64,000 nucleotides of DNA from Spirochaetales bacterium (GTDB lineage Bacteria > Spirochaetota > Spirochaetia > UBA9216), in the NCBI GenBank assembly GCA_016839055.1, contig JAEKNX010000008.1, forward strand, positions 1-64,000, given 5' to 3'. Each line of letters begins with the position of its first letter. The stretch's first letter is position 1. This document shows positions 1,634 through 12,852 of this stretch, piece after piece. The notes under the pieces are model-generated. The model saw only the letters and a list, made by a program, of their open reading frames with translations, was not told the DNA's origin and ran no database searches. The position numbers and the translations under genes were made by a program.

Positions 1634-3721
1634 TCATCCCCTGCCGGATAGAACAGGGAAGAACAAGCTGAGACTCTCCGCCGGCTTGATTTCATAATAC
1701 AGCAGTCCGTAAAGGACGGAAGCAGTTAATACTCTTTTCCCATAATCATGAGTTTCCTTCACAGGAACGGCCTCAAATAGCAGATCAGGGGGGAAATCCG
1801 GATATTCACGCATCCAGCGTCTCACCCTGCCCGGCCCTCCGTTGTACGATATCACGGCAGCAGCTTTATTTCCAACGTAGCCGTTAAGCCAGTTCAAATA
1901 CCAGCTTCCGGTTAGAAGGTTCTCAGCCGGATCAGTAAGATCCGGGATATCCCGTTTCATCCTGATGGCCACATCCTCAGCGGTCGAAGGCATCAGCTGA
2001 GATAGTCCTACCGCCCCGGAGCGTGAGACGATCTCCCGCTCAAAGCCGCTCTCCTTCCACACGAGCCCGAAAAGAACCTGGGGTGGAATATCATTCAAGG
2101 CTGCGGCATACTCGACCTCTTCCCTATAGATATCGGGATAAAGACTCAGCAGACCGCCGGCGGATAACTGACCCTGATATTGATACATCATCCTGATTGA
2201 GTCAAGATGAGCCAGGCGGCCGACGGCTTCCGACGCGCAGTATCTGAGAAAAGACTCGGACAGCTCATCCTTATGCTGCTTGATCGCATCAAGCAGCATT
2301 TCATCAAGATTCCATTTAATCAGGCCGTATACATACAGCTCTGCCTGATTCATTTCTCGATCGACGGGGATCGCTGGTTCGGAAGTCTTTACTGCGAGTT
2401 CCGGAAGGCTGTCACCAGTTAAAATTCGGTAGTATAGATCCGTATAGGTTCTACCTTCCCGCGGTTCCCCCCGGAGAAACCCTTCATCCGCCGCTCTGCG
2501 GGCAAGATAAATATACCGGTCGCCGACATCCTTCGGTCCGGACTGCCGCAGCAGATCTGATACCGACGCAATCTCCTTCCATTTTCGACTACGCACGAGT
2601 CCGGTGCATAGTTCATCAAGGACATCGGCAAAATAATCCGGATCATCCCAATGCTCAATATAGAACGGCAGTCGCCTGGCAGCCTCTGCCGGATCCCGTT
2701 TTTCGGCTATATCCAGGGAATACCATAGAATCCTATCGGAAACATCCGGGCCGGAGGCCTGGATAATCTCATCAAGGCAGCGCTCAGCATTGCCGTACCA
2801 GCCACCCCTACGGTACATCCTGGCGGCGGCAAACCTATAATAATCAGACTCAGCTCCCTCTGCCGCGGAGGCCGCGAGATCTTCAAAAAATTTCCCGCCC
2901 TTGGCGGTTGTCCCCTGCCTGATAAAAAGCTCTTCCAGATCAGAGGCGGCAGTTCTACTGTACTTTCCTTCAGGATTCCCCTTAACCGAGCTCTCAAGCC
3001 AGGCAGACAGAAAAACGCCGGCTTCCCGGTAATTACCTACTGAAAAAAGATATTTTCCTTCAATGAGGTTCTCAAATCCTGGAAACAGGAGGTAAGGCTC
3101 ATCGTGTTCGGCGGTCAGATAATCCCATCCGCGCCTTATATATTCGGAAGAAGGAACATTCTCAAACATAAGAACCCATTCCTCTTCCCATCCGGATTCG
3201 CCAATTCTGTAGGCAGATACAGCACTGAATAAAAAAAGCTCCCAATCCTCGGATGATTCAGCGTATTTTTTTAATCTGCCGATTTTCTCAGGTAACTCGG
3301 TGTCTTTTCTCTGCCAGTATGCCGATGCCGCGGCGGTCCTCCTGAAAAAATAATTATCAGGATACTCCGCGGCCGCCAATGAGGCGGAAAACCCGGCATC
3401 CGCCCACCGGTTCATACCGGCTGAGGTCAGAACACAGAGTTCTGCCGCCTTCTCTCTGAGCAGTCCGATGCTGTTCTGCCAGCTGTATCTCGAAAGCAGG
3501 AGGGCTGTTTTTTCATAGCCGAGTGATAAGGCCTTTAAGGCCAGATAGTAGGACGCATCAGGGTCAAGTTCAGAGATACGGGCTTCAGAAAAATCTTCTT
3601 CCTGATACTGATTTTCTGTAATTATCTTCTCGAGTTCGATAGCGGTCAATCGGCCGGCTTGCTCGACATTACAGGAACAACAAAGAAAAAGAATGAGAAA
3701 TAAAACAGGTAAGTATTTCAT
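1634..3721 (-). CDS. Soluble lytic murein transglycosylase, lipoprotein (SLT domain)
   Basis: This 695-residue exported protein begins with a lipoprotein signal (MKYLPVLFLILF, lipobox Cys17), so it should be anchored on the periplasmic side. The long middle is alpha-helical and TPR/superhelix-like, as in Slt70. The C-terminal SLT domain carries WKESGF (catalytic Glu557), then SGAVGLSQLMPST and a late SYNGGPGRVRRW motif. Lytic transglycosylases cleave glycan strands to 1,6-anhydro-muropeptides. A TTG ten codons upstream is also in frame, but the ATG at 3721 puts the signal peptide at the N-terminus and is preferred. It lies between the LysM gene (47-base gap) and uppP. Confidence 0.88.
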   Translation of the reverse strand: MKYLPVLFLILFLCCSCNVEQAGRLTAIELEKIITENQYQEEDFSEARISELDPDASYYLALKALSLGYEKTALLLSRYSWQNSIGLLREKAAELCVLTSAGMNRWADAGFSASLAAAEYPDNYFFRRTAAASAYWQRKDTELPEKIGRLKKYAESSEDWELFLFSAVSAYRIGESGWEEEWVLMFENVPSSEYIRRGWDYLTAEHDEPYLLFPGFENLIEGKYLFSVGNYREAGVFLSAWLESSVKGNPEGKYSRTAASDLEELFIRQGTTAKGGKFFEDLAASAAEGAESDYYRFAAARMYRRGGWYGNAERCLDEIIQASGPDVSDRILWYSLDIAEKRDPAEAARRLPFYIEHWDDPDYFADVLDELCTGLVRSRKWKEIASVSDLLRQSGPKDVGDRYIYLARRAADEGFLRGEPREGRTYTDLYYRILTGDSLPELAVKTSEPAIPVDREMNQAELYVYGLIKWNLDEMLLDAIKQHKDELSESFLRYCASEAVGRLAHLDSIRMMYQYQGQLSAGGLLSLYPDIYREEVEYAAALNDIPPQVLFGLVWKESGFEREIVSRSGAVGLSQLMPSTAEDVAIRMKRDIPDLTDPAENLLTGSWYLNWLNGYVGNKAAAVISYNGGPGRVRRWMREYPDFPPDLLFEAVPVKETHDYGKRVLTASVLYGLLYYEIKPAESLSLFFPVLSGRG

Positions 3722-3768
3722 ATTGCGGATCAATCCTGTTTGAAGCGGCAATTCAGGTGTACCGAAAG

Positions 3769-5217
3769 CTAATTCTCCGGAATAAAGATATCGGTACCGG
3801 CATAAATAAGGTCAGGGTTTTTTATCCCGTTTTCGACCGCAATCAGACCAAACAACCAGGGGGTTCTGTAAAAAGATATTGAAAGATTCCATAGAGTGTC
3901 ACCCCATTTCAGCCTGTACCAGACTCCGCCGCCACGGCCCTCAGGCGGTACTTCCGAAGAGCCAACAACCGCCGTGCCGAGATCTTCAACCGGCGCAGGC
4001 TTCACGGCCGCAGGTTTATCCGCCTGTAAGTTTTCGGCCGGAATGGCTTGTTCAACCTGCTCGGCAACGGGAGCGGTGTTTTCATCAGTATCAGATGCGG
4101 TAGATTCTATATTATTGTCCGCGACCAGCGGCGGGACTGACTTGTCATCGGCTCCGCGAAGATACATAAAGACTCCGATTCCCGCGATAAGAAGAATAAT
4201 TATAATTATAGCCGCTAGGGCAAGAGGACTCCTTCTCTTTTTATACGCTGAGGGCTCTTCCTCATCGTCTTCAGAATCGAAATCATCCGAGGCACCTAGG
4301 GGAGAGATTCCCTCATCTTCAAAATCCGATTCCTCGGAAAAGGAAGGAAGATCATTAAATCCCTCAAGATCCTCATCAAAACCTGATTCTTCTCCAAAAC
4401 CTGATTCTTCTCCAAAACCTGATTCTTCTCCGAAACCTGATTCTTCTCCAAACACCGATTCTTCTTCAAACATTGCCTCATCATCAAAAACAGGCTCCTC
4501 TCCGAATGAAGGAATCTCATCGAAAGACATTTCCTCATCGGCAGCCATGGTCTTGTCAAATTCAGGCTCATCATCAAAAGAAGGCTCATCATCAAAAGAA
4601 GGTTCACCATCGATAGAGAGATCCTCATCAAATACAGACTCATCTCCGAGGGATATTGCATCGTCAGACAACGGCTCATCATCGAGAGAAAATTCCTCAT
4701 CAAAGTCAGGCTCATCGCTAAGCGGCGAAACTTCGTTAAATACAGACTCATCGTCAAGCAACTGCTCTTCGTCTAACGAGAGGAGATCCTCATCTTCAAA
4801 ATCGGGTAAGTCCCCAAAATCAGATTCTTCATCAAAGCTCTGATCATCTATCTCGAAATTTGGAGATTTAAAACTGTCTTCATCGAGTGATTCCAGGCTT
4901 ACGCTGAGACTCTGTTTTTCACTGGAACCGACATCGCCGGCTACAGCATTCAGATTACCATCCTGATCGACTCCGACAATAAGTTCTATTTCTGGCTCAC
5001 CCTTTCCACCGGGCATAATATCTTCAATCACTATACTACCGACATATTGGGCGTCCGCTATCTCTTGCCCGTTACCGCGAAAGAGATCTATCTGGACACT
5101 GCCCTGATCGTCATATACTGTTGTAAGAACTAGTTTCTTCTTCTTAAGACTATCACCTTCAATAATCGGATAATAAGTTCCATCAGCTATTTTTATTCCG
5201 ATTGTAGAATTCTCCAT
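3769..5217 (-). CDS. DnaK substrate-binding-like domain / acidic repeat / TM / LysM protein
   Basis: This 482-residue protein has four visible parts. Residues 1-110 resemble the beta-sandwich substrate-binding domain of Hsp70: segments such as KKLVLTTVYDDQGSVQIDLF, YVGSIVIEDIMPGG and VDQDGNLNAVAGD line up with DnaK segments before and around GILxVSAKD. No Hsp70 ATPase domain is present. Residues 115-325 are very acidic repeats (DDEPSF, EESGFGEESGFG). One membrane helix spans about 328-350. Residues 432-482 form a LysM domain (GDTLWNLS ... NPDLIYAGTDIFIP), which binds peptidoglycan. The expected topology is a cytoplasmic N-terminus and a periplasmic LysM. An AGAGGT ribosome binding site supports the ATG at 5217. 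The function is unknown; a link between envelope and cytoplasm is inference. Confidence 0.75.
   Translation of the reverse strand: MENSTIGIKIADGTYYPIIEGDSLKKKKLVLTTVYDDQGSVQIDLFRGNGQEIADAQYVGSIVIEDIMPGGKGEPEIELIVGVDQDGNLNAVAGDVGSSEKQSLSVSLESLDEDSFKSPNFEIDDQSFDEESDFGDLPDFEDEDLLSLDEEQLLDDESVFNEVSPLSDEPDFDEEFSLDDEPLSDDAISLGDESVFDEDLSIDGEPSFDDEPSFDDEPEFDKTMAADEEMSFDEIPSFGEEPVFDDEAMFEEESVFGEESGFGEESGFGEESGFGEESGFDEDLEGFNDLPSFSEESDFEDEGISPLGASDDFDSEDDEEEPSAYKKRRSPLALAAIIIIILLIAGIGVFMYLRGADDKSVPPLVADNNIESTASDTDENTAPVAEQVEQAIPAENLQADKPAAVKPAPVEDLGTAVVGSSEVPPEGRGGGVWYRLKWGDTLWNLSISFYRTPWLFGLIAVENGIKNPDLIYAGTDIFIPEN
4382..4453 (-). repeat. 18-bp tandem repeat inside the LysM protein gene
   Basis: Four near-identical copies of an 18-base unit beginning CCTGATTCTTCTCC occur at 4382, 4400, 4418 and 4436, with a degenerate fifth at 4454. 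They encode the hexapeptide repeat ESGFGE in the acidic linker. The near identity at DNA level suggests recent slippage or duplication. Confidence 0.93.
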
Positions 5218-5313: not shown

Positions 5314-6696
5314 ATGATCGAATTAGAATCTTACATAGTTATCCCAATTATTGCTTCGATTGCCGCTGTTATTATTATCGTCGTATTCATCATAAAAGGT
5401 AGAAAGAATTCTAAAACCAATTCAAAACTTGAAAAGGCGAAAGCAACAGACAGAAACGCGGTAATTAAAGAGGCGAATAGAAGGCTGGCACAGAACCCCA
5501 AGGATCCCGCAGCCCTACTCTATCTGGCCGAACTCCATTATACCGAGAAAAACTGGGAGAAATCATATAAATTATTCGAGATGCTTCTTGAAATATGCGC
5601 AACCGATAGTGATTTGGACGAATTCAGTATAACTTTAAAGCATGCTGTCAGTGCTATAAACGTCAAACAGTACAAGTCTGCATATAAAAGCTTCATGCTC
5701 GCAAGAACGGTTAATCCGGACGAATTTGTTATTAATTACAATCTTGGATACCTTGAGTTTATGCGGAAAAATTATGAAAAAGCCGCGATTTTTCTCAATC
5801 AGGCAAAAAACCAGAAATCTGATGACGCATCAACATATAAATATCTTGGCCTAAGCCTGCACAAGATGAACCGTTATAATGACGCAGTTGATGCCCTCAG
5901 GAAGGCTATTGACCTCGATCCGGAAAGCAAGGAAATGATGTTTGCGCTCGGCGAAAGTCTCTTCAACCTCGGCCAGGCCGACGCCGCCATCAAGGTTTTT
6001 TCTACTCTGAGAACCGATGCCCGCTATGGAGCTCATGCCTGTATATATTCAGGCACAATTGCTTCAAAATTCCGTAATTACGACCAGGCCGCAATGCATT
6101 TCGAGCTCGGTCTGAAAAACCCCGGTATCAAGCAGGAATTGAAGTTTGAATTACTCTATAGACTTGCAAATACCTACATCAAGGCAGAGAAAATATCTAA
6201 GGCTATTGCTCCTCTCGAAGATATTGTCGCGGCTAATCCTAACTATAAGGATGCCGGGAATCTGCTGAAAAGATATGGCGAGCTCGATACAAACCTCAAC
6301 CTTAAGATATACCTTATCGGAGACAAGGGTCGATTTATCAGTCTCTGCCGAAAATTTACATCGGTAATGTTTCCCAAAACCAGAATCAAGGTCCTCGATA
6401 TTTCAACGCCTCAGAACGATTATACTGATATGACCGTGGAAATTGTCTCCCCGAAATGGGAGGATGTAGTCGTCTTCAGATTCATGAGGTCTACAGGCCA
6501 GGTAGGCGAACTCATTGTCAGAGACCTTTACGGAAAGATTAAGGAAGTGAAGGCAGGACGGGGTATCTGCGTATCGGCCGGAAACTTTTCAACGGGAGCG
6601 AAGAATTTCGTTGAAGCAAGGCTCATCGATCTCATGGAGAAGGAAGATTTGACGAAAATCCTCAAACAGATAGAGTCGCCAAAATCTGCTGATTAG
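5314..6696 (+). CDS. Membrane-anchored TPR protein with degenerate Mrr-like C-terminal domain
   Basis: This 460-residue protein has an N-terminal membrane helix (about residues 6-28), a basic linker, several TPR units (about 50-325, for example KAAIFLNQAKNQKSDDASTY and YNDAVDALRKAIDLDP) and a C-terminal domain at about 335-455. The last domain resembles the Mrr restriction endonuclease fold: VVVFRFMRSTGQVG, then VRDLYGKIKEVKAGRGICVS and GNFSTGAKNFVEARLIDLM match Mrr in order and spacing. The Mrr catalytic QxK is replaced by FRF, so it is probably a non-cleaving, perhaps DNA-binding, relic. The role is unknown. It overlaps rsmG tail to tail by 4 bases. Confidence 0.7.
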   Translation: MIELESYIVIPIIASIAAVIIIVVFIIKGRKNSKTNSKLEKAKATDRNAVIKEANRRLAQNPKDPAALLYLAELHYTEKNWEKSYKLFEMLLEICATDSDLDEFSITLKHAVSAINVKQYKSAYKSFMLARTVNPDEFVINYNLGYLEFMRKNYEKAAIFLNQAKNQKSDDASTYKYLGLSLHKMNRYNDAVDALRKAIDLDPESKEMMFALGESLFNLGQADAAIKVFSTLRTDARYGAHACIYSGTIASKFRNYDQAAMHFELGLKNPGIKQELKFELLYRLANTYIKAEKISKAIAPLEDIVAANPNYKDAGNLLKRYGELDTNLNLKIYLIGDKGRFISLCRKFTSVMFPKTRIKVLDISTPQNDYTDMTVEIVSPKWEDVVVFRFMRSTGQVGELIVRDLYGKIKEVKAGRGICVSAGNFSTGAKNFVEARLIDLMEKEDLTKILKQIESPKSAD

Positions 6697-10628: not shown

Positions 10629-11414
10629 ATGAATATTTATCCCGGAGAAAAAAAACCTTATATTTTTGCGCACAGGGGCTGTTCGAAAGCCGCTCCGGAG
10701 AACACCCTTGCCGCCTTCGAAGAAGCTCTGAATCAGAAAATTCCTGGTGTCGAACTTGATATCCACCTTTGCAACTCTGGAGAACTCGTGGTTACCCATG
10801 ACGATAACGTTAAAAGAGTCACAGGCTTTGACGGCATTGTTGAAGAATTAAGCTACACCGAACTTAAAAAACTGGATGCCGGAAACTGGAAGGGTCCTCA
10901 ATTTTCCGGCGAAAAGCTGCCTCTGCTGGAAGATGTCTTCGATCTGCTTGGCAGCAGCGTCTACTATGATATCGAAATAAAGAGCCGGAAAACCGTAAGC
11001 TCCGGACTTGAGGAGAAGCTCGCGGCCCTCATTGCAAACCGCGGACTCGAGGAGCGCTGCATAGTCTCTTCATTCAATCCGATGGCGCTAAAGTTTTTCA
11101 AGAAATCAGCTCCTCATATTCCTACGGCGATAATCTACTGTAATGACGGGGAACTGCCTCCGTATCTACGCCACGGAGAAGGGAAATGGATTGCTTCCGC
11201 CGACATACTGAAGCCTGATTACAAGAAAATCAACAGGACATCGATGTTCTTCAATCACACAATCGGCCGCCGGCCCATTCTGCCATGGACTATAGACGAT
11301 CCTGAAACAGCTGTTAAACTTATAAAACTGGGAGTAGAGGGAATTATCTCAAATGATCCGGCATCCATTATCATCGCGCTTGGCATCTGGGCCGGGATTA
11401 AGGAAGATCGGTAG
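10629..11414 (+). CDS. Glycerophosphodiester phosphodiesterase family protein
   Basis: This 261-aa protein belongs to the GDPD family, which hydrolyses glycerophosphodiesters to sn-glycerol-3-phosphate and an alcohol. The signature is clear: FAHRG with His15-Arg16, PENT (Glu24), the metal ligands VELDIH (Glu42, Asp44) and VVTHDDN with the second catalytic His57. A later YDIEIK segment and the C-terminal WTIDDPE are also typical. No signal peptide is visible, so it should be cytoplasmic and act on lipid breakdown products. Its 3' end overlaps the convergent lipoprotein gene by 17 bases. Confidence 0.9.
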   Translation: MNIYPGEKKPYIFAHRGCSKAAPENTLAAFEEALNQKIPGVELDIHLCNSGELVVTHDDNVKRVTGFDGIVEELSYTELKKLDAGNWKGPQFSGEKLPLLEDVFDLLGSSVYYDIEIKSRKTVSSGLEEKLAALIANRGLEERCIVSSFNPMALKFFKKSAPHIPTAIIYCNDGELPPYLRHGEGKWIASADILKPDYKKINRTSMFFNHTIGRRPILPWTIDDPETAVKLIKLGVEGIISNDPASIIIALGIWAGIKEDR

Positions 11415-12852
11415 TAAGCTTATCTCCATACATCTTGCCAAGGCTTGTGAAAGCCGCCGCTATTGTACTTGAATTACTGCCGCCCCTTGCCCTCTTCTGC
11501 TCGGAGGCAGAAAAAAGGATACGGCCGGACTCAAGCTCAACGGCTTTTATCTTTCCCGTCACCTTCACAATAACATTGCCGCCGGTTTCTTCATAACTGC
11601 TAATCTCGGCCGTGCCGAAGACCATCCTCTGATAAAGATTACCGTACTGCTCCCTGACAATCTTTATCAGTTCACTGTCGCTCACAGCAGTCATTCGGTA
11701 ATCAACGGGGATCATGAATATCTCAAAGCCGGCCTCGGTGAGTACAGATACTATACCCGAAGCGGTATCTGTCTTATCAAGCGGATTTCCGCTTCTGTCA
11801 ACGTCCATTACCATAACGCAGGTAGGGACTTCGACTGCCTTAGAGAAGACCTCATATTCAAAAAAAACCTTCTTGCTGTTTACCGCCTGCTCAAGACTGT
11901 CGACATATTGCAGAAGATCAAAGTTGACATCCTCAAGAGGTTCGATGACCGCCCTCATATCCAGAAAAAAGGTAATCTTGTCTAGCCCAATCCATTCCGG
12001 AATCGGAGAATCAAATGAGGCAAGACCGTCTCCATCCGTTAAAATAGTGTGGGTCCGGACAGCCTTCCTTCCGTTCGCCCTCAGTTCCTTATAGCTAACG
12101 GTCACCGGAAGACCTACAGCGGGCAGTCCACTATAGCTCAGTTTCACAGTAAATTTCCCGTCGAATTTTTCGCCGATGTAGGCAAAATCAGGCCCAGAGA
12201 CGGCTTCAATTTCTATCTGTTCCACCGCATCTTCAGCCTTTGCAATATTACGTTCAAATTTCAGCCCGACGTTCTCGATATCCGAGACAGATACCATAAG
12301 TGCCGCGTCAATAAAACTAACCGCAGAACGGTAGTACTTTTTCTGCATATAGAGCTCATCCCCTTCCTTCTCAGGACCGGAGAGAGCCTCCACCTTTTCC
12401 CTGAAAAGATCTTCAAGCTTCTTCTTTTCCGCCTTAATCTCCGCCGCACTGTACTCGACAAGCATATGCACTACTACCGCCGGATCACCATAATCGATCC
12501 AGCGGTCCGCAACCCGCAATCCGCCCAGACTTGCTCCGGGCTGTTCGCGAATAGCCAATCTCAGGCTGCTTTCAAATTTACTATACGCATCCTTTGATTC
12601 AACCCTTGTGTCAGAGGTTATCCTGACTCCGACATATCTAATAATTTCCGACACTATCAGATCTGCAGCTTCATCTGCGGCCCGGTTAATATCTCCGTCA
12701 GAATCAGAACCAATGCCGATAAAATATTTATATTCAGATGTATCCTCCGGAGAGGTCGAAACCCATTCCGGAACACCGCTTGTTGTAGCACAGGCAGACA
12801 AAATTGCCGCGGCGGCTGCGAGAATACTGATTCTGAATATAAACTTCGTCAT
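11398..12852 (-). CDS. LPP20-like lipoprotein with C-terminal extension
   Basis: This protein of about 484 aa starts with a lipoprotein signal (MTKFIFRISILAAAAAILS, lipobox Cys21) followed by VPEWV and YFIGIGSDSDG, which resembles the start of LPP20-family lipoproteins. Further on there are helical segments (KAEKKKLEDLFREKVEAL), a beta-rich middle, and a C-terminal part (VMVMDVD, ITPVDYR-like, GTAEISSYEETGGNVIVKVTG) reminiscent of CsgG/TolB-N-like periplasmic domains. A GTG two codons upstream overlaps the previous stop codon, but AGGG is well spaced for the ATG at 12852. It is the second gene of a pair with a similar lipoprotein, and both are probably co-transcribed. Function is unknown. Confidence 0.7.
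   Translation of the reverse strand: MTKFIFRISILAAAAAILSACATTSGVPEWVSTSPEDTSEYKYFIGIGSDSDGDINRAADEAADLIVSEIIRYVGVRITSDTRVESKDAYSKFESSLRLAIREQPGASLGGLRVADRWIDYGDPAVVVHMLVEYSAAEIKAEKKKLEDLFREKVEALSGPEKEGDELYMQKKYYRSAVSFIDAALMVSVSDIENVGLKFERNIAKAEDAVEQIEIEAVSGPDFAYIGEKFDGKFTVKLSYSGLPAVGLPVTVSYKELRANGRKAVRTHTILTDGDGLASFDSPIPEWIGLDKITFFLDMRAVIEPLEDVNFDLLQYVDSLEQAVNSKKVFFEYEVFSKAVEVPTCVMVMDVDRSGNPLDKTDTASGIVSVLTEAGFEIFMIPVDYRMTAVSDSELIKIVREQYGNLYQRMVFGTAEISSYEETGGNVIVKVTGKIKAVELESGRILFSASEQKRARGGSNSSTIAAAFTSLGKMYGDKLTTDLP

Follow-up and report, generated by a model that had tools for sequence, protein, structure and literature searches.

The window, a 64,000-nucleotide stretch of DNA from a Spirochaetales bacterium that opens at the edge of its contig, carries on the minus strand at 3769–5217 an intact open reading frame of 482 amino acids with an ATG start. 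It encodes an Hsp70 beta substrate-binding domain (SBD-beta), an acidic linker, a membrane helix and a predicted LysM module. Immediately downstream on the same strand lies the gene of a lytic transglycosylase (SLT; 1634–3751), which matched the BB0259 flagellar family (NCBIfam NF047373, BB0259_flg_lyt, E = 6.2e-124). The TTG start called for this gene is probably too early; read from the likelier ATG at 3721, the product has a lipoprotein-type signal with the lipobox LCCSC. Two further minus-strand genes follow: uppP, for undecaprenyl-diphosphatase (806–1603, NCBIfam), and a gene truncated at the edge of the window and contig (3–704), which specifies the N-terminal portion of a multi-TM protein containing acidic repeats. 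On the plus strand, at 5314–6696, a divergently oriented gene encodes a protein with an N-terminal membrane helix, TPR repeats (Pfam) and a C-terminal Mrr-like domain of the restriction-endonuclease fold (PF04471). The usual Q-x-K catalytic strand of this domain seems to read V-F-R-F. Judged from its sequence, the Mrr-like domain is possibly an inactive nuclease fold serving as a binding domain.

The multi-TM fragment had no Pfam match of its own, and we assigned it to ftsK by synteny. Of 16 homologous loci with enough sequence, 14 have a P-loop open reading frame of >400 amino acids, the size of ftsK, after uppP, and a confirmed ftsK follows uppP in a Borrelia-like genome. Tandem repeats of the GATGAAGTC type (VDEVDEVDE...) lie at positions 1–100, at the window edge, within the acidic linker of the probable ftsK. 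A preliminary description made from this DNA alone had named a lytic transglycosylase, uppP and a putative ftsK as neighbours. The first two stand by their own matches and the third by gene order. The same description had read the neighbourhood as a wall-growth or division context. Because the adjacent SLT belongs to the BB0259 flagellar family, insertion of the flagellum describes the context at least equally well. In Borrelia, BB0259 mutants showed that a peptidoglycan-lytic function is needed for proper periplasmic flagella, and the BB0259 SLT interacts with FlgJ (PMC8517470).

Residues 1–110 (4888–5217, minus strand), predicted to be cytoplasmic, form the SBD-beta domain. The Pfam HSP70 profile (PF00012) aligned residues 25–110 with its positions 415–500 of 599, which correspond to the beta SBD, and this match passed the gathering cut-off (E = 1.9e-8); NCBIfam DnaK models aligned residues 6–110 (E = 5e-11). 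DnaK and mitochondrial Hsp70 SBDs were the best phmmer matches among PDB chains (E about 1e-9), and a profile built from 18 homologues improved the DnaK/Hsp70 SBD matches among solved structures to E about 1e-12. An AF2 model of the N-terminal domain with 58 homologues had a pLDDT of 80 and eight strands in the SBD-beta fold; a single-sequence AF2 model of the whole protein was uninformative (pLDDT 46). All of the best 50 Foldseek matches listed from the PDB were DnaK or other Hsp70s (best E = 2.6e-8, with DnaK SBDs at 3e-8 to 1e-7). TM-scores by query were about 0.8 and identities 20–28%, and for most of the DnaK matches the rmsd was about 1.7 Å over ~110 columns. The likeness to the DnaK SBD-beta that had been proposed for the first 110 residues is thus borne out by both sequence and model: the structure prediction that could have shown a different fold for residues 1–115 gave this one, with DnaK SBDs as the best PDB matches.

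We found no NBD in the 482-amino-acid protein, either with Pfam or by alignment to DnaK. Residue I6 aligns with DnaK L399, and no residues precede the first SBD strand that could form an interdomain linker. The protein therefore begins at the equivalent of DnaK residue ~399, with neither NBD nor interdomain linker, in keeping with the earlier claim that an ATPase domain is missing. The alpha lid is also absent; the acidic stretch and the membrane helix take its place after the SBD. The loop at DnaK 419–420, which in Hsp70s helps coupling to the NBD, is deleted in alignments of the SBD-LysM family. ATP-regulated client binding is excluded in principle, since the NBD is absent. Lacking ATPase, linker and lid, the protein could act only as a passive peptide binder. 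Of the “chaperone-type peptide-binding domain” described earlier, the SBD-beta fold remains, and the word chaperone is too strong.

The SBD is followed by an acidic, partly repetitive linker (residues ~111–328, 4234–4887, minus strand; 40% D/E), predicted to be cytoplasmic. Over residues ~116–331, D/E account for 40% and K/R for 3%. In-frame 18-bp repeats encoding FGEESG units lie within this linker at 4380–4480. Its length ranges widely among homologues, from 28 to 255 amino acids, which suggests repeat-driven drift. A single strongly hydrophobic helix (residues ~332–354, 4156–4224, minus strand) is marked by a Kyte-Doolittle maximum of 3.16 at residue 332, with KKRR just before it. A PPLxA-like juxtamembrane motif follows the helix directly in only 20 of 78 homologues, too few for a family hallmark. 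Beyond the helix, an extended linker rich in P, A, E and V (residues ~355–433, 3919–4155, minus strand), predicted to be periplasmic, leads to the predicted peptidoglycan-binding LysM module (residues 434–480, 3778–3918, minus strand). Its match to Pfam PF01476 lies just above the cut-off (E = 2.9e-4, 21.1 versus 20.9 bits); in three homologues the LysM scored 27–45 bits, and its W-G-D-T-L-W motif is conserved among homologues. Composition, hydropathy and Pfam therefore agree on the order of acidic region, membrane helix and LysM that was first described. We also compared the charges flanking the helix across the family. K/R residues immediately flanking the helix averaged 3.7 on the N-side and 1.5 on the C-side, and the N-side count was the higher in 70 of 76 homologues. 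This asymmetry predicts a cytoplasmic SBD and a periplasmic LysM facing the wall, the orientation proposed at the outset. Together, sequence comparison and structure prediction leave the SBD fold and the domain architecture well supported.

The SBD-LysM gene was present in 7 of 7 genomes searched from the same taxonomic family. In a phylum sample of 296 genomes, high-scoring SBD matches (about 60–165 bits), on frames that could not accommodate an NBD, were spread over most of the class. Outside the class, matches came from a few families (f18, f31 and f44, plus a diverged copy in f20). Full-length DnaK scored lower in the same scan, mostly at 35–58 bits, and some short Hsp70s reached 65 bits. 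A scan of 84,980 species genomes gave 352 confirmed stretches, and all were from spirochaetes among the 80 matches listed. In a tree with DnaK and short Hsp70s, the family formed one clade (support 97/96); four members sat on long branches, and their placement is unsure. SBD, helix and LysM occurred in that order in 73 of 77 complete open reading frames from named genomes, and the helix in 76. The LysM was counted here by a strict motif; among the four exceptions, L096 carries a LysM that is still recognisable as a variant, and L067 contains a stretch of unknown bases. The phylogenetic spread of the fusion had been put forward as a check on the preliminary description, and the fusion does recur across the spirochaetes. 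On these sequence matches, the SBD-LysM fusion is a widespread spirochaete family. A chance open reading frame or an assembly fusion is ruled out by the recurrence of the architecture. A truncated DnaK pseudogene is likewise ruled out: the source genome has a separate full-length DnaK-like open reading frame, and the family has its own clade and its own start codon.

The gene neighbourhood was also conserved. Of 80 named loci, 72 had an SLT homologue of the same kind as the adjacent NF047373 gene; its median gap to the SBD gene was −4 nt, and uppP follows the SLT in many of them. The TPR membrane protein was divergent and adjacent in 69 of the 80 loci. Several of the loci lacking an SLT or TPR gene are short contigs. 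G021, a genome from another class, keeps the divergent TPR/SBD pair with no adjacent transglycosylase of the BB0259 kind. A version consisting of SBD and helix, with no LysM, lies beside the transglycosylase in G148, G209, G259, G299, L063 and L093. Two of these genomes, G299 (L147/L148) and G148 (L149/L155), carry a second paralogue with full SBD-LysM architecture away from the LysM-less copy. In f20, outside the class, a 283-amino-acid SBD-helix protein (L167, 2223–3071) ends in a charged region and lacks a LysM.

We then assessed conservation of the peptide cleft, using the residues that line the pocket in DnaK–peptide structures. The first cleft strand corresponds to residues 6–13, IGIKIADG (5179–5202, minus strand; DnaK 399–406), which alignments and the entropy table identify as the signature motif of the SBD-LysM family. 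The central pocket strands correspond to residues 31–43, LTTVYDDQGSVQI (5089–5127, minus strand; DnaK 426–438), where pocket entropy is near zero; Q38, V41 and I43 are the equivalents of Q433, V436 and I438. Columns equivalent to E. coli DnaK I401, S427, T428, Q433, V436 and I438 were invariant or nearly so in the family; the M404 column holds an invariant Ala, and the A429 column Val. Mean entropy at eight pocket positions (DnaK 426–429, 433 and 436–438) was 0.21 bits, compared to 1.67 bits at other positions (P = 5e-6, Mann-Whitney) and 1.20 bits at other hydrophobic-consensus positions (P = 1e-4). Positions 399–408 were omitted from this test because the genome scan had picked homologues by that motif. 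No positions of the SBD domain are more strongly conserved than the peptide-cleft residues. The simplest explanation for their excess over other hydrophobic-consensus positions is a cleft in use. With the cleft kept and the 419–420 loop deleted, the domain resembles a peptide binder freed from allostery, a likeness from which we infer binding.

Orthologues were found in two genomes whose T. pallidum-like (G062) and Borrelia-like (G107) identities we infer partly from gene order. G062 (1.14 Mb) has the gene order of T. pallidum and encodes a 310-amino-acid orthologue with a LysM directly before the transglycosylase; by gene order this is very probably TPASS_0042. TPASS_0042 has been annotated in silico as a “peptidoglycan binding (LysM)” protein, an annotation that names the LysM only and leaves the SBD half unnamed (PMC4403809). 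In G107, with a 0.9-Mb chromosome, a 393-amino-acid open reading frame lies between the transglycosylase and TPR genes. Its residues 8–77 match the family profile (E = 7e-11), followed by an acidic linker and helix and no LysM. Pfam gave no HSP70 match in either orthologue. The cleft is degraded in the Borrelia-like orthologue, where most cleft residues are lost, including the equivalent of Q433, and pocket positions are altered in the T. pallidum-like one. In these orthologues, peptide binding may have been lost. The Borrelia-like locus L140 also encodes a 503-amino-acid Hsp70 (10804–12315) with 28 residues after the SBD-beta and hence almost no lid; it lies about 3.4 kb from the SBD orthologue and branches outside DnaK, near the short Hsp70s. 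TP0048, which is motility-linked in a published interactome, was considered as the orthologue and rejected as a different gene, annotated as a CcmA/polymer-forming cytoskeletal protein.

To what extent the gene is tied to flagella can be judged from genomes with and without them. Genomes of f12 had no FliG or flagellin match where tested and lacked both the SBD gene and the transglycosylase; the TPR protein was absent where looked for. Three f9 genomes keep the SBD gene with no flagellin match, no BB0259-type SLT and no TPR partner. At the two f9 loci that we read (L143 and L144), the SBD gene has a LysM and lies directly before ftsK; these genomes are 1.5–1.7 Mb in size, and FliG is weak or diverged. 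G268 has the SBD-LysM gene and flagellin and lacks the BB0259-type transglycosylase, and the SBD gene was not found in five flagellated genomes (G191, G273, G284, G252 and G301). Because the f9 genomes keep the gene with no flagellin match, a strictly flagellar function is rejected as an absolute rule, and the protein must do more than serve flagella. The distribution is better matched by a part in opening the wall or organising the envelope, from which flagella would benefit in most species.

These data are best explained by a bitopic inner-membrane scaffold whose N-terminal SBD-beta would lie in the cytoplasm with its hydrophobic cleft kept. Since ATPase, interdomain linker and lid are lost and the cleft is retained, the SBD would bind its partner, a cytoplasmic or membrane protein, through a short peptide segment exposed on that partner; binding would be passive and reversible and would need no ATP cycle. 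The long acidic and probably disordered linker may let the SBD head reach partners or exclude them, a single helix would span the membrane, and the C-terminal LysM would grip peptidoglycan and so fix the complex to the wall. The best candidate partner is the divergently encoded membrane TPR protein. We rate about evenly the chances that the protein is such an ATP-independent, wall-tethered scaffold, with its SBD gripping a partner's peptide motif beside the transglycosylase. Given that the BB0259-type transglycosylase gene starts right after this gene, and often within it, the likeliest role would be to mark or hold the wall-opening site for insertion of the periplasmic flagellum; this role possibly extends to envelope growth or division near FtsK. 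The fuller proposal, a spirochaete trans-envelope adaptor in which the ATP-independent SBD-beta reads a linear motif and the LysM fixes the wall-opening site for flagella or division, is one that we hold only tentatively.

Three other explanations have to be weighed. The SBD-like domain might be an ordinary interaction or oligomerisation module, with no Hsp70-type peptide binding, that links cytoplasmic flagellar or division machinery to the wall. Neither ATPase nor lid is present, the Borrelia-like and T. pallidum-like orthologues keep the locus despite their altered cleft residues, and conservation of the cleft residues could reflect a need for stability or a single fixed partner. However, in most members of the family the pocket is more strongly conserved than the other hydrophobic-consensus positions, and we regard such a module as possible, though rather unlikely. 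Hsp70 SBDs bind unfolded segments, and in the Borrelia-like genome the almost lidless Hsp70 lies close to the family gene; both would suit a passive membrane-bound holdase or targeting factor that hands a class of clients, for instance flagellar export substrates or secreted lipoproteins, to DnaK or an export machine. But a LysM anchor is superfluous for such work, and no chaperone or export gene was among the neighbours found conserved, which makes a holdase improbable. We give slightly less credence still to a sensor of wall or envelope stress, in which LysM engagement would alter SBD exposure or oligomeric state and signal to the TPR/Mrr-like partner. The layout is like that of other bitopic wall sensors, and the frequently divergent TPR protein ends in a restriction-endonuclease-like domain, but the protein has no kinase, anti-sigma or other output domain, several lineages have no LysM, and the TPR partner was not found in the f9 genomes that keep the SBD gene.

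In Hsp70, the peptide-binding domain is normally considered only in combination with the ATPase, and a family with the cleft but no motor is a natural experiment on what the cleft does alone. If the trans-envelope adaptor is correct, the Hsp70 peptide cleft would serve here as a plain motif-recognition domain outside chaperoning. Our analysis also puts forward the SBD-LysM protein as a partner, so far unstudied, at the locus whose enzyme opens the spirochaete wall for internal flagella. Its Treponema-like and Borrelia-like orthologues are testable, and standard annotation, with no Pfam HSP70 match, misses them. In the open-licence literature we found no study of the protein under BB0260, BB0261, TP0042 or Hsp70 SBD with LysM, and the fusion is not covered by any model in Pfam or NCBIfam. 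The SBD protein is absent from the BB0259 paper, whose text mentions neither LysM nor BB0260 (PMC8517470).

Among known systems, the locus has an adjacent gene of the BB0259 type (NF047373), and its SLT-uppP-ftsK order is that of the Borrelia-like genome. MapZ, RodZ and PASTA kinases have a cytoplasmic head, a single membrane helix and an extracytoplasmic portion, which for several of them is wall-binding. The SBD-LysM protein differs from them in having no kinase or HTH domain, with a LysM in place of PASTA or MapZ domains, and we know of no bitopic wall-anchored scaffold that uses an Hsp70 SBD. With Hsp70/DnaK SBDs (the C-terminal part of PF00012; PDB 1dky and 4r5j), the 482-amino-acid protein shares the eight-strand fold, and the family keeps the equivalents of cleft residues I401, T428, Q433, V436 and I438. 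Unlike Hsp70/DnaK, it lacks the NBD, interdomain linker, 419–420 loop and alpha lid, is predicted to be membrane-bound and forms a separate clade. The parts are of known kinds; their combination and the loss of the ATPase are new within the open-licence literature searched.
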